Source: Streptomyces rochei (GTDB taxonomy: Bacteria > Actinomycetota > Actinomycetes > Streptomycetales > Streptomycetaceae). From it: a stretch of 58,383 bases of DNA. The stretch's first letter is position 1; every line of letters begins with the position of its first letter. The stretch spans positions 1 through 58,383 of the forward strand of contig MUMD01000146.1 of assembly GCA_002155895.1 (NCBI GenBank), written 5' to 3'. Under the pieces are notes generated by a model. That model did no database searches. It worked only from the letters and a program-made list of their open reading frames with translations, and had not been told where the DNA came from. The position numbers and the translations under genes were made by a program. Shown piece by piece: positions 19,049 through 39,943 of the stretch.

Positions 19049-19058
19049 GCCACGCCCC

Positions 19059-19124
19059 GGCGGCGCCGGGCCGGCGGGGCCCGTCGAACACGGCGGCGCC
19101 GGGCCGGCGGGGCCCGTCGATCAC
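19059..19124. repeat. Tandem 33-base repeat, two copies
   Basis: Two copies of a 33-base unit (19059-19091, 19092-19124) differ at one base and lie just after the glucosidase stop. Each contains the hairpin-prone core CCGGGCCGGCGGGGCCCG, so the block could act in termination. Confidence 0.6.
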
Positions 19125-29855: not shown

Positions 29856-30407
29856 TCAGGCCCGCAGCCACTCCGTGACCACCACGTCCCCACCGGTCCG
29901 CAGCCGCAGCGCGAACGGGCCGGAGGGCGGGGCCTCGCCGGTGAAGCGCCCCAGGTCGTCCGCCGTGAGCCGGGCGTGGGCCCGCGGACCGCTCAGCACC
30001 TCGACGTCGGCCGGGCCCGGCGGCAGCAGCTGACCGATCAGGCCGTCCTCCGTCACCTCGACGTCGACGGTCACGTCGTCCACGCGGAAGGTCAGCATCC
30101 GCGGCGGGTCCTCCGCTCCCCTGACCGGGATGGCGTCGACCAGCGAGTCGAAGGTCAGCTCGGCGACGCGGGCGTCCAGGTCGTGCAGCGCGAAGGCGTC
30201 GACGGCGATCCGCCGCAGCTCGGCCGGGACCGGGTCCAGGATGGCGGCGGCCTGCCGCAGCTCCTCCTCCAGCAGTCCGGTGTCGAGTGCGTCGTCCGTG
30301 AAGTGCGTGGAGTCAGTGGAGTCCGAGGAATCCGTGAGGTCCGTGAGGTCCGCGAATGCCTCGTCGGACCCGTCGTCCCCGAACGCCTCGTCGTGTGTGC
30401 CGCTCAT
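29856..30407 (-). CDS. Acidic sigma-associated protein of unknown function
   Basis: 183 residues. Residues 1-45 are acidic and Ser/Thr/Asp-rich with repeated TD-x-TDS units, apparently disordered; residues 50-85 look helical (EEELRQAAAILDPVPAELRRIAVDAF); the rest is a beta-rich domain (LTFRVDDVTVDVEV, GQLLPPGPADVEV, then LGRFTGEAPPSGPFALRL). I recall this protein type beside sigma factors in actinobacteria, but know no function. It overlaps the end of the sigma-factor gene by four bases (ATGA-type overlap) and so is translationally coupled; a regulatory partner or substrate of the neighbouring proteases is a reasonable guess. Confidence 0.8.
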   Translation of the reverse strand: MSGTHDEAFGDDGSDEAFADLTDLTDSSDSTDSTHFTDDALDTGLLEEELRQAAAILDPVPAELRRIAVDAFALHDLDARVAELTFDSLVDAIPVRGAEDPPRMLTFRVDDVTVDVEVTEDGLIGQLLPPGPADVEVLSGPRAHARLTADDLGRFTGEAPPSGPFALRLRTGGDVVVTEWLRA

Positions 30408-30982
30408 GTCGTCGTCCCCCGTGCCTCTAGCCGGGCCCGCAGCCGGCGCAGACAGCGCTGGCGCATCGGCCCGATGCTGCCCACCGCGATTCCCAGCGCG
30501 GCGGACACCTCCTGGTAACTGGGCGGTGGCGAGGAGATCAGCACGCGCAGCAACTGGCGGCACCGCTCGCCCAGTTCCTCGAACTCCTGCCACAACCGCC
30601 GCACGCGCTCGGTCTGCGCCGCGGCCTCCTCGGAGTCGAGCACCGACTCCTCGGGCGTACGCTCCTCGCTCGGCCGGTCGAGCAGCTGCGGGTCGTCGGT
30701 CGGGGTCCACCGCTTCGACGCCCTCAGCAGCTTCAGGCACTCGTGCCGTGCCGTGCTCGCCAGCCAGGAACCGGTCTTCTCGGGCTCGCGGATGCGCCCC
30801 AGGTGCTGGGCGAACCGGAACCAGGCGGTCTGGTACACCTCGTGCGCGTCGGCGTCGGACAGCCCGTGCGAGCGCGCGACGGACCACACCAGCGGGCCCA
30901 GCCCGTCCACCAACTGCTTCCAGGCCGCCGCGTCCCCGTCGGCGGCCAACTGGACGAGCACCCCGACATCTGCACGGTCCAC
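30404..30982 (-). CDS. RNA polymerase sigma-70 (ECF-like) factor
   Basis: 192 residues with sigma region 2 (about 20-85; WLVWSV-like core LGPLVWSVARSHGLS, then DAHEVYQTAWFRFAQHL) and region 4 (about 130-185; CRQLLRVLIS, SYQEVSAALGIAVGSIGPMRQRCLRRLR). The linker contains a DDPQLLDRPSEERTPEE segment. No transmembrane anti-sigma factor is encoded; instead an acidic soluble protein overlaps its 3' end. GTG start chosen at the codon after AGGGGTGGGACC. A TACGAT -10-like hexamer lies about 30 bases upstream, so it may have a promoter separate from the subtilase gene 71 bases before it. Confidence 0.9.
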   Translation of the reverse strand: MDRADVGVLVQLAADGDAAAWKQLVDGLGPLVWSVARSHGLSDADAHEVYQTAWFRFAQHLGRIREPEKTGSWLASTARHECLKLLRASKRWTPTDDPQLLDRPSEERTPEESVLDSEEAAAQTERVRRLWQEFEELGERCRQLLRVLISSPPPSYQEVSAALGIAVGSIGPMRQRCLRRLRARLEARGTTT

Positions 30983-31053
30983 GGTCCCACCCCTCGTGTA
31001 CGACAGGCCATCGTACGCCGTGGAGTGGGTGGTTCCGCCGGGCATCGGGCCGC

Positions 31054-32487
31054 TCACGCCCCGTCGGCCGGCACCTCGACGGTGACCGGGTGCCAGGTGG
31101 GCGGCAGCAGCGCGGGCACGTGCGCCCCGCGCACCTCCGCGTACTCGGTGTTGGCGGCGAGCAGGCGGCGGCGCGCCACGCGCGGGTCCCGCTCCTTCGT
31201 CTCCGTCATGTGCGAGGCGACCAGGCCCGCGACGACGGGGGTCGCGAAGGAGGTGCCGCTCCACTGCGCGTGCCCCTCGAACATCACCTGGTCCGGCTTG
31301 GCCGGCGCCTCGCCGGGTTCGCTGAGGACGCCGTTGTGCCGGGGGTACCGGCAGGTGCAGGCGTAGCCGAAGCCGTACCGGCAGGCGTCGTAGGTGGAGT
31401 GCTGGTAGACGTAGGGCACGGGTGATCCGAAGCCGGTGAGGGCGCTGGTGAGGCGCTCGCCCGGGGCGTAGACCTTGACCCAGCCGCCGTGGTTGCTGAA
31501 GCAGGCGCCGAACTCGCCGTCGGCGCGCAGCGCGCCGACCGACAGCACCGAGCGCTCCCAGCCGGGGAGTTCCGCGTAGGCGGCGGGCCAGAAGGGGGTG
31601 GCGCTGCCGTTGTTGCCGGCGGCGGCGACCAGCAGGGTGCGCTGGTCGCGCAGCTCCTCCATGAAGGCGTGCACGCCGAGCAGGCCGTCGGTGCGGCCGT
31701 TGGAGGTGCCGGCGGAGAGGCTGAGGATCTCGGGCCAGCCGTCGCGGTCGACGGCCTCGAAGAGCTTCTCGCCCAGTTCGGACTCCAGGATGGCGCCCGC
31801 GTCGTTGAGCGTGTTGCGGACGGTCACGTGGGTGTTGGGGGCGACGGCGGCGACGAGTCCGGCGATGAAGGTGCCGTGGCCGACGTACTGCTGGAGGACG
31901 CCGTCCTCGTCGCACTCCTTGATCTGCGGGTCGCCCTCGGTGTGGGCGAGCAGCGGGGAGGACCGGTAGTCGTGCATCAGGCCGGTGTCGATGACGAGGA
32001 CGCCCACGGCGGTTCCCGCGTCGTACGGCGTGTCGGCGGGCGCCGGGTTCGGCGGTGCGCCCACCGGGACGGGCACGGGTTCGTCGCCGGGGCAGGCGTT
32101 CACGGCGATGGAGACGACGTGGTTGCGGCTGACGAGCCGGCGGCCCGCGCGCCCCTCCATGGTTCTGAGGGAGCGCAGGGCGTGCGCGACGGTGGGGTCG
32201 CCGCTCCCGTCGCCCTCGCCCGGGTCACCGACCCGGATGCGGGTGATGCCCGTGCGGTTGGCAGCGGGGCTCGCCCGGCGCACCTGGTCCGGGGTCAGGC
32301 CGTCCGTCGCGGTGAAGTGGTCGCGCACGGTGTCCTCGACGAGGCGGGCCTCCTCGCCGTCGCGGGCCAGGACGACGCCCTTCTCGTAGAGGAACTCGGC
32401 GGAGTCGTCCGGCCCCATCACCAGCGGGACGTCCGGCATCGAGCGCTGGATCTGGTCGAACTGCTCACGGAATCGCTGTGGTGCCAT
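31054..32487 (-). CDS. S8 family serine peptidase (subtilase), cytoplasmic
   Basis: 477 residues. The catalytic triad is intact: Asp167 (VLVIDTG), His204 (YVGHGTFIAG) and Ser413 (WSGTSFATP), with the oxyanion Asn near 292 (AAAGNNGS). There is no signal peptide or membrane segment, so it should act inside the cell, unlike most Streptomyces subtilases. An insertion before the Ser motif (about 355-405) has three closely spaced Cys (369, 377, 379) and resembles no domain I know. The first 150 residues may be a recognition or inhibitory domain. It is divergent from the TPR-CHAT gene and upstream of the sigma factor, suggesting a shared pathway. ATG with GGAGGG upstream. Confidence 0.9.
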   Translation of the reverse strand: MAPQRFREQFDQIQRSMPDVPLVMGPDDSAEFLYEKGVVLARDGEEARLVEDTVRDHFTATDGLTPDQVRRASPAANRTGITRIRVGDPGEGDGSGDPTVAHALRSLRTMEGRAGRRLVSRNHVVSIAVNACPGDEPVPVPVGAPPNPAPADTPYDAGTAVGVLVIDTGLMHDYRSSPLLAHTEGDPQIKECDEDGVLQQYVGHGTFIAGLVAAVAPNTHVTVRNTLNDAGAILESELGEKLFEAVDRDGWPEILSLSAGTSNGRTDGLLGVHAFMEELRDQRTLLVAAAGNNGSATPFWPAAYAELPGWERSVLSVGALRADGEFGACFSNHGGWVKVYAPGERLTSALTGFGSPVPYVYQHSTYDACRYGFGYACTCRYPRHNGVLSEPGEAPAKPDQVMFEGHAQWSGTSFATPVVAGLVASHMTETKERDPRVARRRLLAANTEYAEVRGAHVPALLPPTWHPVTVEVPADGA

Positions 32488-32629
32488 GGCATGCCCTCCA
32501 CTGAGGCGGCGGTGTGACGGCGGTCGTGGCCACGGTGGTGGCGACAGTCGTCAATCAGAGTCCGGGGGTGGCCGATTGATACAGACTCGGCCCTGTGGGG
32601 TGTGGTTCCGGACCACTACCATCCGTGGG

Positions 32630-35329
32630 GTGACAGCGGGAAACGACGCGGTGCTCCAACTCCTGCCGATGGTGTTCGCCGCCCCCGGCGAAGCGCTGGC
32701 CCGCGCGGAGGAACTGCTCGGGGCCGATCCCTCACCGCTGCACGCCTCGGTCGCCCATCAGGTGATCGGCATCTGGCAGCGGGACTTCGGCGACACCCGG
32801 CGGGCGCTGGCCCATCTGCGGCGCGCCCGTGAACTCGCGGCCCGCGCGGACTCGGCCGAGCGGGAGGCGGACGTACTGGCCACCCTGGGCGTGGCGCTGG
32901 TGCACGCCGGCCGCACCCGGGACGGGCTGGCGGCCTTCGAGCGGGGCGTCGCGCGCGGCACCGGGCACACCCGGGCACGGGTGCTGTACCGGCGGGCGTA
33001 CGTCTGGTGGGTGCTGGGGCGGCACGGCGAGGCGCTGGAGGACGTACGCCGGGCGGTCCCGGTGCTGCGGCAGGCCGACGACGTGATCTGGACGGCGCGG
33101 GCGCTGACCCTGCGGGCGACCGTGCACCTGGCGCTCGGCGCGGTGGAGCGGGCGGACGCCGACTTCACGGCGGCGGAGGCGCTGTGGGACACCACCGGCC
33201 AGGAACACGACAAGGCCGACGCGGTGGAGAGCCGGGGGCTGGCGGCGTTCCGCTCGGGCGACGTGCCGGCGGCTCTGAGGCTCCTGGACGAGGCGGAGGA
33301 GCGGTACGCGAAGCTGGGCACGCCGACGTTCATGCTGTCCATCCGCCGCTGCGAGGTGCTGATGGCGGCGGGGCTGGCGACGGAGGCACTGGCCGAGGCG
33401 GACGGGGCGATCGCGGCGCTGGACGGGATCGGCGGGCAGTCCACCCGCAAGGCGGAGCTGCTGCTGGTGGCCGCGCGGGCGGCCCGGCTGGCGGGCGATC
33501 CGCAGACCTCGCTGGCGCGCGCGGCCCTGGCGGTGCGGCTGTTCGCCGGGCAGCGGCGCACCTGGTACGAGACGCACGCCCGGCTGGTGCTGATCGAGGC
33601 GCGGGTGGCGACGGGGCGTGCCTCGGGGCGGCTGGTGGCGGACGCGGCGGCGGTGGCGGAGCGGCTGGCCGCCTTCGGTGCGCCGGCCGCCCCGGAGGCG
33701 TCGCTGCTGGCGGGACGGATCGCGCTGGGGCTCGGCTGGACGGCGGACGCGGAGCGGCATCTGGCGGTCGCCGCGCGCAGCCGGCACGGCGGGCCGCCGT
33801 TGGCCCGGATGACGGGCTGGGCGGCGCAGGCGCTGCGGGCGCGGGCTGCCGGGTCGGCGCGCGGCGTGCTGGAGGCATGCCGACGGGGTCTGGACGTCCT
33901 CGACGACCACCGGATGACGCTGGGCGCCTCGGAGTTGCGGGCGCGGGCCACCGCCCAGGGCGCGGAGCTGGCGGCGCTGGCGCAGCGGGCGAGCCTGGTG
34001 TCGGGCGGGCCGCGGCGGCTGCTGGTGTGGAGCGAGCGGTGGCGGGCGACGGTGCTGTCGGCGCCGCCGACCCGGCCGCCGGCCGATCCGGTGCTGCTGA
34101 GCACCATGACGGCGTTCCGGGAGCTGGCCGCCCGGGCGGAGGAGGCGCGCACGGACGGTGGTCGTCCCGCGCCCGCCCTGGAGCGCGAACAGCGCCGCCT
34201 GGAGCGGGAGATCCGCTCCCGCACCCTGCACATGCGGGGCGAGGGGCGCGGTGACGGCGACGGCGGCCGGTTCGACGTCGGGCGTCTGCTGGACCGGCTC
34301 GGTGACGAGCTGCGCCTGGTGGAACTGGCCGTGCTCGACGGGCGCGTGCACGTACTGCTGTGCGGGCAGGGGCGGGTACGGCGGTTCGAGGCGGGGTTGC
34401 TGGCGGAGGCGGAGCGGGAGGCCGAACACGTGCAGGCCGGGCTGCGCCGGCTGGCCCATCCCGGGGCCGAGGCCCGGCTGCCCCTGGTGGAGGCGGCCGG
34501 CGCGCGCCTCCAGGAGCTTCTGCTCGGTCCCGCCGCCGCTCACCTCGGCAACGGCCCGGTCGTCGTGGTCCCGCCCGGCAGGCTGCACCGCGTGCCGTGG
34601 GCCCTGCTGCCCGTGCTGCGCGACCGGGTGCTGAGCGTCTCGCCGTCGGCGAGCAGCTGGCTGCGCGCGAAGGACACCGCCCCGCCGCCCGGCGGCCGCC
34701 GGGTGCTGGTGCGCGGCCCGGGGCTGGCCAGCGGCGGCGCCGAGGTACCGGAACTCGCGGACCGCCACGCGGGCCCCCCTCCCCCGGCGCGCTCCGGGGA
34801 GAGTCCCCGGCGGGATACGGGGGCCCGGTCGGGCGGCGCGGGACCGCTCGACGGCCGGCCCGTGCTGCTGGAGGGGGACGAGGCGAGCGTGCCCCGGGTG
34901 CTGCGGGAGCTGGACGGGGCGGCGCTGGCGCACATCGCCGCGCACGGCGCCTTCCGCGCGGACAGCCCCTTGTTCTCGTCGCTGCGGATGGCGGACGGGC
35001 CGCTGATCGTGCACGACTTCGAGCGGCTGGACCGCAGCCCGTACCGGATCATCCTGTCCTGCTGCGACACCGCCCGTCTCGCCTCGGTCGGCGCGGACGA
35101 GCTGCTCGGGCTGGTCACCGCGCTGCTGCCGCTCGGCACGGCCGGGGTGGTGGCGTGCAGCGCGCCGGTCAACGACGCCGCGGTGGTGCCGTTGATGCTC
35201 GCGCTGCACAAGGGCCTGGACGCCGGGCTGTCCCTCGCGGAGGCGCTGCGCGACGCGCGGGCCGCGCTGCCGGGCGACGCCGTGCACCAGGCGACGGGGT
35301 GGGCGTTCTCCGCGTTCGGGGCGGCCTGA
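32630..35329 (+). CDS. TPR-repeat CHAT-domain protease (caspase-like)
   Basis: 899 residues. Roughly residues 1-480 are helical TPR-like repeats (for example GDTRRALAHLRRARELAARA). A basic linker is followed by a C-terminal CHAT domain (about 560-899; caspase HetF associated with TPRs). The His/Cys dyad is present: His772 in AHIAAHGAF and Cys812 in ILSCCDTA, followed by the conserved GADELLGLVTALLPLGTAGVV stretch (residues 820 on). CHAT proteases are soluble cysteine peptidases used in regulated cleavage. It is divergent from the subtilase-sigma genes. Start: GTG at 32630; no ribosome site, but TACCAT seven bases upstream could give a leaderless mRNA; an in-frame GTG at 32600 is possible. Confidence 0.88.
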   Translation: MTAGNDAVLQLLPMVFAAPGEALARAEELLGADPSPLHASVAHQVIGIWQRDFGDTRRALAHLRRARELAARADSAEREADVLATLGVALVHAGRTRDGLAAFERGVARGTGHTRARVLYRRAYVWWVLGRHGEALEDVRRAVPVLRQADDVIWTARALTLRATVHLALGAVERADADFTAAEALWDTTGQEHDKADAVESRGLAAFRSGDVPAALRLLDEAEERYAKLGTPTFMLSIRRCEVLMAAGLATEALAEADGAIAALDGIGGQSTRKAELLLVAARAARLAGDPQTSLARAALAVRLFAGQRRTWYETHARLVLIEARVATGRASGRLVADAAAVAERLAAFGAPAAPEASLLAGRIALGLGWTADAERHLAVAARSRHGGPPLARMTGWAAQALRARAAGSARGVLEACRRGLDVLDDHRMTLGASELRARATAQGAELAALAQRASLVSGGPRRLLVWSERWRATVLSAPPTRPPADPVLLSTMTAFRELAARAEEARTDGGRPAPALEREQRRLEREIRSRTLHMRGEGRGDGDGGRFDVGRLLDRLGDELRLVELAVLDGRVHVLLCGQGRVRRFEAGLLAEAEREAEHVQAGLRRLAHPGAEARLPLVEAAGARLQELLLGPAAAHLGNGPVVVVPPGRLHRVPWALLPVLRDRVLSVSPSASSWLRAKDTAPPPGGRRVLVRGPGLASGGAEVPELADRHAGPPPPARSGESPRRDTGARSGGAGPLDGRPVLLEGDEASVPRVLRELDGAALAHIAAHGAFRADSPLFSSLRMADGPLIVHDFERLDRSPYRIILSCCDTARLASVGADELLGLVTALLPLGTAGVVACSAPVNDAAVVPLMLALHKGLDAGLSLAEALRDARAALPGDAVHQATGWAFSAFGAA

Positions 35330-35350: not shown

Positions 35351-37162
35351 TCAGGCCGGCTGCGGCTGGGGCGGCTCCACCAGCCAGGGCAGGGCGCCGC
35401 GGTCACCGGCACCGAGGCGGGTGTAGGCGCCGTAGAGGTGGTTGCCGACGGTGCGGACGGAGAGGGTGAGCCGCTCGGCGATCTGCCGGTTGCTGAGCCC
35501 GGCGGCGGCGAGCGTGACGACCTGCCGCTGGCGGGCGGTGAGTTCGCCGAGGACCAGGCCGGACAGGGCGGGGGTGCGGGCGCCCTCGCAGCGCCGGGCG
35601 AGGGCGACGGCACGGGTGCGGGCGGTGCGCGCGGCGCTCGGGTCGCGGTGGACCCGTACCGCCTGGGCGTGGGCCTCGGCCGCGAAGAGCAGGAAGCCGC
35701 GCCGTTCCAGTTCCCCGGCCACCTCGTCCAGCGCCGGTCCGTCACCCCGTGCCAGGGCGTCGGCGTGCGCGGCGAAGACGCCGGTCAGCCGGCCGGCCGC
35801 GCGTTCGGGCGCGCCGAGCCGGACGGCGTCGTAGGGGTCGCCCGCGGCGGCCGACCGGACCGCCTCGTCGAGGTCGCCGCGGACGGCGGCGGCCCAGGCG
35901 GCGACCGTCCCGGCGCACCGCCGCGGCTCCCGGTCCCCCGCGGTCGCGTCGCCCGACTGCGCCGCTGCCAGGGCGAGTTCGTCGCGGCAGGAGGTGTCCC
36001 GCGGGTCGGTCCGCAGGCCCTCCCGCGCCCAGGCCGCCGCCTCGGCCAGCCGTCCGCCCAGGCGGGCGAACCGGGCGCGCAGCGCCGCGTGCCGGGCCGG
36101 CAGCGGGACCCCCTCGGCCGCCAGCCACTCCCCGACGGGCGCGGACGGCTCGCGTACGTCGGCCCGCTCGATGCGGCGGGCCAGGGCGGCCGTCTCGGCG
36201 TTCAGGGCAGGCCCGCAGCGCTCCGGGGCGCGCGCCAGGCGCCGTGCCCGCAGCCGGCCCGCGGCGGCCCGCAGCACCGGCCCGTGCAGGGGGTGCGCGA
36301 GGCGGGTGGCGCCGTGGTCGTCGACGGTGACCAGGCCCTTGCCCTCCAGGCCCTCCAGGACGGACACGTCCAGGGTGTCCAGGCCGAGGGGCAGGGGTTC
36401 GGCGAAGGCGAGGCGTTCGAGCGTCTCGCGTTCCTCGGGCCGGACACGGTCCAGTACGTGGGCGGTGCGCTCCCGCACGGCCGCGGTGACCGGCACCGGC
36501 CCCCGCCAGGCCCACCGGCCGGTCTCCGGGACCGCGGTGAGCAGCCCCCGGCCGCGCACGGCGGTGAACAGCTCGCGCAGCAGGCGCAGATCGCCCCGGC
36601 TCAGCCGGTGCAGCCGGCGTGCGGTGAGGGGGTCGGGGGCGACTCCCTCGGCGGCCGTGAGCAGGTCGGCGGTCTCGTCGCGGGACAGCGGCGGCAGGGA
36701 GAGGCGGGGCAGCAGCTCCCCGGACCACAGCCGGGACACGGCGCCCGGCACGGGCACGCCCTCCGCGGCGACGACCAGGAGCCGGGTGCGGCCGTGCACG
36801 GCGAGCTGGTGCACGAGGGCCGCGGAGGCGTCGTCGAGCAGGTGGGCGTCGTCGACCAGCAGCAGGCGTACGCCGGACAGGAGCTGTACCGCCCGGTGCA
36901 GGGTGACGGACCCGGGCAGGAGGTGGGCGAAGGCGGCGAAGGGGATGTCCCGGGTCGCGGGCGTCCCGGCCGCCCGGGCGCAGTCCGTGCCGCGGACCGC
37001 CTCGGTCACGAGCCGGGTCTTGCCGCAGCCGGCCGGGCCGGTCACCACGATGCCGCCGCGTCCGGCGGTCACCGACCGTCGTACCAGTTCCAGTTCGTCC
37101 GTCCGCCCGGTGAACGGCCAGGGCGTCCGCAGTGCTCTCACGTCCCGCTCAGAAGTCGTCAC
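35351..37162 (-). CDS. LuxR family AAA-ATPase transcriptional regulator
   Basis: 603 residues, a compact LAL-like regulator. Walker A GPAGCGKTRL (near residue 41) and Walker B RLLLVDDAHLL (near 100) define the N-terminal ATPase; the middle is helical, probably TPR-like; the C-terminus is a LuxR helix-turn-helix (about 535-595, ELTARQRQVVTLAAAGLSNRQIAERL). GTG start without a ribosome site, probably leaderless. It ends close to the CHAT gene (convergent) and is divergent from the metzincin-like gene, sharing a 97-base intergenic region with an elaborate dyad that it may bind. Confidence 0.9.
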   Translation of the reverse strand: MTTSERDVRALRTPWPFTGRTDELELVRRSVTAGRGGIVVTGPAGCGKTRLVTEAVRGTDCARAAGTPATRDIPFAAFAHLLPGSVTLHRAVQLLSGVRLLLVDDAHLLDDASAALVHQLAVHGRTRLLVVAAEGVPVPGAVSRLWSGELLPRLSLPPLSRDETADLLTAAEGVAPDPLTARRLHRLSRGDLRLLRELFTAVRGRGLLTAVPETGRWAWRGPVPVTAAVRERTAHVLDRVRPEERETLERLAFAEPLPLGLDTLDVSVLEGLEGKGLVTVDDHGATRLAHPLHGPVLRAAAGRLRARRLARAPERCGPALNAETAALARRIERADVREPSAPVGEWLAAEGVPLPARHAALRARFARLGGRLAEAAAWAREGLRTDPRDTSCRDELALAAAQSGDATAGDREPRRCAGTVAAWAAAVRGDLDEAVRSAAAGDPYDAVRLGAPERAAGRLTGVFAAHADALARGDGPALDEVAGELERRGFLLFAAEAHAQAVRVHRDPSAARTARTRAVALARRCEGARTPALSGLVLGELTARQRQVVTLAAAGLSNRQIAERLTLSVRTVGNHLYGAYTRLGAGDRGALPWLVEPPQPQPA

Positions 37163-37170
37163 GGAAACAT

Positions 37171-37221
37171 GAGTCGGCCTACTCGCCCCTGATACAGGGC
37201 GACTTGAGTAGACCCCGACTC
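37171..37221. promoter_or_regulatory. Nested dyad between the LuxR and metzincin-like genes
   Basis: GAGTCGG/CCGACTC, CTACTC/GAGTAG and CGCCC/GGGCG arms lie in order around a central TGATACA, with small insertions on the right side. This is a large interrupted palindrome in a divergent promoter, a plausible operator for the LuxR regulator; a cruciform or RNA hairpin is also possible. Confidence 0.45.
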
Positions 37222-37258
37222 AGGCGACCGCACCCGCCCGGACGGCATGCTGGGGGTC

Positions 37259-38338
37259 ATGACCGCACGCTACTGCTCGCTGGCGCGGCAGCCCGCTCCC
37301 GTGTTGCCACCGGGACTGGCCGCCGAGCGCGTCGCCGCGCTGGTCGGCGGGCAGCGGATGTGGGTCAACGGCACCGTGCTGCACTACTGCTTCCTCGGCG
37401 GGGACACCGACTCCTCCGTGGTGCCGATGCCGGGCACCGGCCGCCCGCGGCGGGGGTCGTGGGCGGGGACCGAGGAGCAGCGGGACGTGGTCCGGGACTG
37501 CTTCCGGCAGTGGCAGGACCTCGGCATCGGGCTGGTCCTCACCGAGGTGGGCGACCGGTCGGAGGCCGAGCTGCGGATCGGCTTCCAGCCCGGCGACGGC
37601 TCGTGGTCGGCGGTGGGCAAGGACGCGCTGCGGGTCGGTCTGAACGACCGCACGATGAACTTCGGCTGGGACCTGACCGCGCCCGGGGAGCGCGCGACGG
37701 CCCTGCACCAGATCGGGCACGCGCTCGGCATGCTGCACGAGCACCAGAGCCCGTACTCCGGCATCCTCTGGGACGACGAGGCCGTCTACGCCGAGCTGGC
37801 GGGCCCGCCGAACCACTGGAGCCGGGAGCGGACCTTCCACAACATCCTGCGCAAGCTCGACGGCGACGAGGCCAACGGTCCGGTCTGGGACCCGCAGTCG
37901 ATCATGGAGTATCCCTTCCCGTCCGGGCTGATACTCGAGCCGGAGCACTACCGCTCGGGTCTGCACCCGCCCGGCACCCTCTCCGCCGCCGACAAGGAGT
38001 TCGCCCTGCGCTGGTACCCGCCCCTCGGCCGGCCGGGCCCGCTGGTGCCGTTCCGTTCGGTGCCGCTGGGGCTCGGGCCGGGCGAGCAGGCCGACTTCCG
38101 GGTGGACCCGCCGGAGACCCGCGAGTACACCGTGGGCACCTTCGGCGACAGCGACGCCGTCGTGGTCGTCTTCGAGGTGCGGGACGGCCGGCCCCGCTAC
38201 CTGGCCGGGCACGACGACGGCGGCACACCCCGCAACGCCACGATCAGGGCCCGTTTCGTCAAGGGCCGCCGCTATGTCGTCCGGGTGCGCCTGTACTCCT
38301 CGTGGGGTGCGGGCGAGACGGCGGTCATGTACTGGTGA
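37259..38338 (+). CDS. Metzincin-like (matrixin/astacin-type) protein with catalytic Glu replaced by Gln
   Basis: 359 residues. The zinc motif reads HQIGHALGMLH (His150, His154, His160), so the zinc ligands are kept, but the general base Glu is Gln151 (codon CAG at 37709-37711; one change from GAG). A Met-turn (SIMEYPFP) and the HEHQSP continuation match the M10/M12 peptidases, whose usual form is HExxHxxGxxH. It probably binds zinc and peptide without cutting, or cuts very slowly. A C-terminal beta-rich domain (about 255-359) follows. No clear signal peptide. The start could also be the ATG at 37247; neither has a strong ribosome site. Confidence 0.82.
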   Translation: MTARYCSLARQPAPVLPPGLAAERVAALVGGQRMWVNGTVLHYCFLGGDTDSSVVPMPGTGRPRRGSWAGTEEQRDVVRDCFRQWQDLGIGLVLTEVGDRSEAELRIGFQPGDGSWSAVGKDALRVGLNDRTMNFGWDLTAPGERATALHQIGHALGMLHEHQSPYSGILWDDEAVYAELAGPPNHWSRERTFHNILRKLDGDEANGPVWDPQSIMEYPFPSGLILEPEHYRSGLHPPGTLSAADKEFALRWYPPLGRPGPLVPFRSVPLGLGPGEQADFRVDPPETREYTVGTFGDSDAVVVVFEVRDGRPRYLAGHDDGGTPRNATIRARFVKGRRYVVRVRLYSSWGAGETAVMYW

Positions 38339-39871: not shown

Positions 39872-39903
39872 CGTGTCCCGCGGCAGGCCGAGCGGTGCGA
39901 CGC

Positions 39904-39943
39904 TCCACAGGGCCACGTAGGACGATCCACAGGGCCACGTAGG
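39904..39943. repeat. 22-base-period direct repeat
   Basis: TCCACAGGGCCACGTAGG occurs twice (39904-39921 and 39926-39943), 22 bases apart, in the gap between the symporter and cupin genes. No function apparent; possibly slippage. Confidence 0.6.

Follow-up and report, generated by a model that had tools for sequence, protein, structure and literature searches.

Why a sigma factor should be encoded next to two intracellular proteases is the question raised by a stretch of 58,383 nucleotides from Streptomyces rochei (contig MUMD01000146.1 of assembly GCA_002155895.1; hereafter, the window). Here, four adjacent genes at positions 29856-35329 encode a small acidic protein of 183 residues (the partner), a sigma factor of the extracytoplasmic function (ECF) type of 192 residues, an intracellular subtilase of 477 residues, and a TPR-CHAT protease of 899 residues. 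The association of sigma, subtilase, and CHAT proteins is already partly in print as group ECF54 (PMC8999054), and what is new is a promoter-like dyad, TGTATCA-N15-RCTC, at the sigma operon and at the gene of the neighbouring regulator, absR2. We find that the four genes form a real module, of which we are practically certain, and we propose, with moderate confidence, that it works as a cytoplasmic protease-gated sigma switch driving its own operon and a LuxR regulator gene, absR2 in the case of Streptomyces.

Conservation of the four-gene set

The partner gene lies directly downstream of the sigma gene in 159 of 179 non-redundant sigma loci. This set was drawn from 160 regions picked by sigma similarity and 32 picked by a CHAT match, with seven regions that repeated a genome place dropped, and its fractions therefore describe the sample and not all genomes. 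Within 9 kb of the 159 pairs, a CHAT gene is found in 119 cases, a subtilase gene in 115, and both in 107, the four genes occurring in eight arrangements. Where the sigma has no partner directly downstream, neither protease is present in the fetched region in 19 of 20 cases; in the exception (L222), the partner sits on the opposite strand, about 4 kb away. These partnerless sigmas are not one clade in the sigma tree (9 changes). Some of the 32 loci with the pair alone are on short contigs; the proteases were sought elsewhere in 14 genomes and, in all 14, a single CHAT match adjoins a top-scoring subtilase at another place.

The same association is seen at the level of genomes. Among 200 genomes of the family, the partner was matched in 29, of which 28 are real (the match in G059 is weak and spans 57 residues), and the same 28 carry a sigma that is at least 75% identical. 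Class-level profiles found the sigma in 125 of 394 genomes and 57 of 137 genera, the partner in 61 of 296 genomes and 33 of 114 genera, CHAT in 103/296 genomes, and the subtilase in 74/296. Partner and CHAT co-occur in 60 of the 61 partner genomes, and CHAT is present in all 74 subtilase genomes, counts that ignore relatedness and whose p-values are not relied on, the sigma set in this comparison running to G467 only. A further 32 genomes with CHAT and sigma gave no match to the first partner profile; 20 of these were fetched for this purpose, and a refined profile recovered a diverged partner in 20/20 (G248, G279, G355, and G422, among the 32, belong to no fetched set). The shuffled gene order, the split into halves, and the linked presence thus argue for function rather than chance. 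In Streptomyces, the conserved unit extends to absR2: of the 200 family genomes sampled, 25 of the 28 with the module encode AbsR2, against 0 of the remaining 172.

An initial annotation, made from the letters of the window alone, had already described four adjacent genes with an overlap of partner and sigma, an S8 protease with an intact triad acting inside the cell, an intact His772/Cys812 dyad in the CHAT protease, and a gene set that looked conserved. All of this was borne out, whereas the extension of the unit to absR2 and the two copies of the dyad were not in that annotation. The start of the partner and the stop of the sigma share an ATGA; CHAT His772/Cys812 and subtilase Asp167/His204/Ser413 are each invariant in 51/51 aligned rows (L121-L200 and the window, short pieces excluded, with about 20 rows from Streptomyces); in a simple scan, the subtilase has neither a hydrophobic signal nor a membrane-spanning part; and the gene neighbourhoods returned the genes as a set, which some genomes split into two pairs. 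Compared with the Protein Data Bank (PDB), the CHAT profile has as its top match the CHAT protein 8rot (3e-10) and also matches Craspase/Csx29 chains (E-values of 1e-7 to 3e-7), from which we conclude that the protease domains are related.

The split arrangement is found in family f19, which includes Jiangella, and in some others, where the sigma-partner pair stands apart and the subtilase and CHAT genes lie together elsewhere, sometimes with two subtilases (L130, L135, L144, L147, L151, L152, and others). In several of these loci, the separate pair has beside it a gene that we take to be SepH-like.

The promoter-like dyad and absR2

Alignment of the DNA between the subtilase and CHAT genes of 19 Streptomyces loci revealed a conserved TGATACA element, and an enumeration across genera yielded TGTATCA and the dyad TATC-N16-GCTC, refined to TGTATCA-N15-RCTC. 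The dyad points to whichever gene leads the operon, be it subtilase or sigma. In the fetched DNA, the form GTATC[AT]-N15-[AG]CTC occurs at 131 sites vs 3 for a reversed-letter control in 2,930,236 bases, the 131 coming from related loci, and so not being independent, and the window being excluded from the control. Of these sites, 36 are ahead of the subtilase, 35 ahead of the sigma, and 37 ahead of other genes.

The draft genome of this strain contains exactly two exact dyads, both in the window, one pointing to the sigma operon and the other to absR2 (Table 1). In 13 Streptomyces genomes, the exact TGTATCA-N15-RCTC is found at the sigma operon in 13/13, upstream of absR2 in 10 (11 have absR2), and at 9 places elsewhere. 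The absR2 gene lies within 17 of the 21 fetched Streptomyces loci and is preceded by the dyad in 16 of them, mostly ending about 8 nt before the GTG, the seventeenth having a near copy. In other genera, the dyad is found upstream of an AAA-LuxR gene at about 33 nt (L123 and L124), 46 nt (L126), or 10 nt (L128). Location and conservation together make it probable that the dyad is the promoter recognised by the sigma of the module.

The function of the apparent target has been studied in S. coelicolor. As absR2 and absR1 are the next genes, the locus adjoins the counterparts of SCO6992 and SCO6993, and the gene numbers suggest that SCO6994-SCO6997 are the S. coelicolor names for the module. The LuxR-type protein SCO6993 represses antibiotics and binds the promoters of actII-ORF4, redD, and its own gene, the last at -54 to -37, and its deletion raises actinorhodin 9-fold (PMC9628970), a repressor role already suspected in an earlier paper of the same group, where SCO6992 (AbsR1) is reported as a beta-glucuronidase (PMC9705864). 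The self-binding site falls just upstream of the position that the dyad has in relatives. SCO6995, a 'putative intracellular serine protease', is AdpA-dependent, and antibiotic production was inhibited when it was expressed in excess (PMC2936110). The product of SCO6996, the sigma factor, has been seen at the protein level, with a higher abundance when cells are phosphate-replete (PMC9739823). With the ECF54 context in print and published data on SCO6993, SCO6995, and SCO6996, the view in the initial annotation that no function had been assigned in Streptomyces does not hold. In the accessible text of the open-licence literature, we found no paper connecting the sigma to SCO6993.

Several further occurrences of the dyad deserve mention. 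In L128, a family sigma without a partner is directly followed by the dyad and the AAA-LuxR gene, which suggests that a sigma-LuxR link is possible without the partner. The 15-nt spacer of the absR2 dyad (L182-L199 and the window copy) contains a conserved GAGT(A), absent from the sigma-operon copy and perhaps the site of a second regulator. By eye, the dyad is also seen ahead of response-regulator-like genes in L136 and L246, and a near-identical dyad stands some 49 nt ahead of the gene of a secreted protein in L367 and L368 (G340 and G252, of one genus), a possible extra member of the regulon. A third group of dyads (L323 and L341, with L339 by similarity) lies in convergent intergenic DNA, followed by G-rich repeats and with no clear target, and was set aside; as read by eye, it comes after a sigma gene that we take to be SigE-like, divergent from a presumably AfsQ1-like regulator.

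The partner protein and the proposed switch

The N-terminal tail of the partner is variable and acidic, with a net charge of -14 over 44 residues, and is followed by a conserved helical-looking motif, LDPVP...AFALHDLDARxAELTFDS, and then by the C-terminal part. Pfam gave no match for the partner of the window, and CarboxypepD_reg was matched by 7 of 10 diverse partners at E-values of 0.0002-0.034, every one below the curated cut-off. The context reported for ECF54 comprises carboxypeptidase, subtilase, and CHAT proteins, with proteolytic control proposed and the group classed without an anti-sigma (PMC8999054). By its domains and context, the sigma described here very probably belongs to ECF54, and the published 'carboxypeptidase' is probably our partner. 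Partner and sigma have the layout of a sigma/anti-sigma pair, with a small adjacent gene that would be co-transcribed, and we consider it likely that the partner is an anti-sigma, a candidate for the one missing in ECF54. In one Streptomyces genome (G198; L200, L030, L032, L038), two short frames come after the partner and repeat its last 59 residues (56% identity to the window copy), so that its C-terminal part is duplicated in tandem. No natural fusion of sigma and partner occurs among 166 pairs.

In the model that we propose, the acidic CarboxypepD_reg-like partner would keep the ECF sigma inactive until CHAT is activated by a signal received via its TPR repeats; this protease would then cut the partner directly, or activate the subtilase that cuts it, and the sigma would be freed. 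For this step, the release of the sigma by CHAT-driven cleavage, we see the chances as evenly balanced. The free sigma would bind TGTATCA-N15-RCTC and drive its own operon, in a positive feedback, as well as absR2, the product of which would repress the activators of antibiotic pathways, as published for SCO6993 of S. coelicolor (PMC9628970). The sign of the chain agrees with published data, in which extra SCO6995 lowers antibiotics (PMC2936110) and loss of SCO6993 raises actinorhodin (PMC9628970); if true, the model would account for the lower antibiotic output upon extra SCO6995. It offers a concrete and testable pathway for an orphan sigma group in a model genus, from protease to partner, sigma, absR2, and antibiotic clusters; it also supplies a predicted promoter and points to a probable anti-sigma where the literature records none for ECF54. 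In its widest form, which we put forward tentatively and hold at slightly below even, a CRISPR-free chromosomal switch made of a caspase-like protease, an anti-sigma, and a sigma, old in Actinomycetota, would directly turn on a LuxR antibiotic repressor, with CHAT gating secondary metabolism.

A number of observations weigh against this model. The partner profiles A2 and A7 match by sequence no anti-sigma or Csx30 chain in the PDB, in a copy whose Csx30 content was unchecked. In a mean-field direct coupling analysis for sigma-partner contact, the top inter-protein scores exceed those of shuffled pairs, but sigma-CHAT, sigma-subtilase, and CHAT-subtilase score alike; coevolution of sigma and partner is thus no better than that of other gene pairs, the signal is one of relatedness and not of contact, and the analysis was set aside. 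Five genomes (G313, G358, G366, G389, and G412) have partner and CHAT with no subtilase match at 1e-50, so that the subtilase is not the universal release protease, and 11 loci have sigma, partner, and CHAT without a subtilase within 9 kb, which together make the subtilase look accessory. Regarding the dyad, the genome-wide count in the 13 Streptomyces is 32 vs 19 for the control, only the locations being striking. Outside Streptomyces, the exact dyad is found in 28/213 upstream regions of subtilase or sigma vs 34/1417 of other nearby genes (some of which, such as absR2, are themselves presumed targets), and therefore the dyad is weaker or missing at many loci. Of 23 genomes from other genera that have the module, 17 contain an exact match and 6 do not, with 32 matches vs 15 for the control, and among 30 such sites read, 10 are ahead of a subtilase or sigma of the family and 3 ahead of an AAA-LuxR gene. 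Finally, the papers that report the phenotypes do not, in their accessible text, connect them with this sigma.

Other explanations were also weighed. The proteases might degrade the sigma itself, with no anti-sigma and the partner serving as an adaptor or chaperone, a possibility proposed from context for ECF54 (PMC8999054) and in agreement with the lack of homology of the partner to known anti-sigmas. We find it unlikely, as the pair of sigma and partner is the most constant element of the loci (159/179). Moreover, the two genes are separated by the short gaps or overlaps that are typical of sigma/anti-sigma gene pairs, and what the review calls a carboxypeptidase seems, in the gene adjoining the sigma, to be a small CarboxypepD_reg-like protein. 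Less probable still is that the partner is mainly a CHAT substrate with active fragments, or a co-activator of the sigma, whose cleavage would end the response. The joint presence of partner and CHAT in 60/61 genomes would be expected in that case, and how cleavage frees the sigma is still unclear in the Csx30 system (PMC10028731); an inhibitor would, however, better suit the predicted co-transcription of a small acidic protein and the positive feedback that the dyad appears to provide.

The dyad might in turn be read by another sigma or by a repressor, the module's sigma controlling other genes. This would agree with the exact site being missing from most upstream regions outside Streptomyces (28/213 carry one) and with the reported influence of AdpA on SCO6995 (PMC2936110). 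The constant 15-nt spacer and the direction towards the sigma operon are nevertheless kept across gene orders and genera, and the site is paired with a LuxR gene also beside the partnerless sigma of L128, which leaves this explanation improbable in our view. As for the phage-defence role envisaged in the initial annotation, no support was gained, the promoter evidence pointing to a regulator of secondary metabolism. CHAT and S8 proteases do occur in defence, CRISPR-linked chains are among the nearest CHAT relatives of solved structure, and the subtilase has a weak PADLOC match (7.6e-11), all of which would suit a defence or cell-suicide protease cascade with the sigma as a minor reporter. Yet, in the six proteins scanned, no PADLOC model matches the partner, the sigma, or CHAT, no CRISPR-like array is found in 15-50 kb of the window, and the apparent target is an antibiotic regulator, so that such a cascade seems very improbable.

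Known systems and neighbouring features

The locus shares with ECF54 a sigma with regions 2 and 4 and the subtilase, CHAT, and 'carboxypeptidase' context. It differs in the dyad and the absR2 target, absent from the accessible part of the ECF54 review, and in what appears to be a small CarboxypepD_reg-like partner adjoining the sigma, the review classing the group without an anti-sigma (PMC8999054). With the type III-E CASP system (Csx29/Csx30/CASP-sigma), in which CASP-sigma has binding motifs inside its own locus (PMC10028731), it has in common a TPR-CHAT protease with a His/Cys dyad, an ECF sigma, and a partner protein, whereas here the partner has 183 residues and no sequence match, a serine protease is added, and a LuxR regulator is the predicted target. 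The initial annotation had supposed a CRISPR-independent kinship with the Csx29/Csx30 logic: for the protease, this is supported by CHAT relatives that include Craspase/Csx29, but the partner has no Csx30 match by sequence in the PDB. PADLOC gave no Cas effector match for the six proteins, the rest of the window not being scanned with cas models, and the CARF3 matches of AbsR2 are confined to its C-terminal region, where the LuxR HTH lies. As no CRISPR-like array is present in 15-50 kb and the scanned proteins include no apparent Cas effector, the locus is not a type III-E system.

The CalpL/CalpT/CalpS system relies on proteolysis of an anti-sigma that is in complex with an ECF sigma (PMC11417357). 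Its protease is of the Lon type, with a SAVED sensor and a cyclic tetra-adenylate (cA4) signal, and the system has no CHAT or subtilase. SAVED-CHAT has a CHAT protease, as does our module, with a SAVED sensor and cyclic tri-adenylate (cA3) there, and its second protease is a caspase, whereas here it is the subtilase. The CHAT protease of SAVED-CHAT works through a proteolytic cascade (PMC11229360). Our results suggest that the protease-sigma logic of CRISPR type III is also that of an ordinary regulatory module found throughout Actinomycetota. In the widest form of the model, if true, type III-E and SAVED-CHAT would have branched off from, or converged on, a far more widespread regulatory device, the anti-sigma of which had been overlooked as a 'carboxypeptidase'.

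The assignments in Table 1 rest on Pfam matches to Sigma70_r2 (1.9e-11), Peptidase_S8 (8.4e-18), CHAT (1.7e-25), and TPR_12 (1.2e-7). Region 2 of the sigma is found by Sigma70_r2 and region 4 by TIGR02937 only (residues 40-205 of P0002), the Pfam model of sigma region 4 giving no match in this sigma, whose GTG start was picked by conservation. AbsR2 scores 1009 bits to NF050132 (cut-off 850), and AbsR1 likewise passes its NCBIfam equivalog cut-off.

Table 1. Genes and promoter-like sites of the module and its neighbours in the window
Feature	Position	Strand	Basis
Partner, candidate anti-sigma	29856..30407	-	Acidic N-terminal tail, CarboxypepD_reg-type C-terminal part; directly downstream of sigma in 159/179 loci
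ECF-type sigma factor, 192 aa, GTG start	30404..30982	-	Sigma70_r2, TIGR02937
Cytoplasmic S8 subtilase, 477 aa, D167/H204/S413, accessory module member	31054..32487	-	Peptidase_S8, alignment
Promoter-like dyad TGTATCA-N15-ACTC, pointing to subtilase-sigma-partner operon	32558..32583	-	Intergenic alignment, motif scan
TPR-CHAT protease, 899 aa, H772/C812 dyad, divergent from operon	32630..35329	+	CHAT, TPR_12, alignment
absR2, large ATP-binding LuxR regulator, predicted direct sigma target	35351..37162	-	NF050132
Second dyad copy, 8 nt before absR2 GTG start, leaderless-like	37171..37196	-	Motif scan
absR1 (SCO6992 family), divergent neighbour	37247..38338	+	NF050131

At 29-36 kb of the window, no consensus sigma-70 promoters or terminators were found. 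Two short tandem duplications lie elsewhere in it, one at 19058-19123 (33 nt, 97% identity) and the other at 39899-39942 (22 nt, 95% identity).

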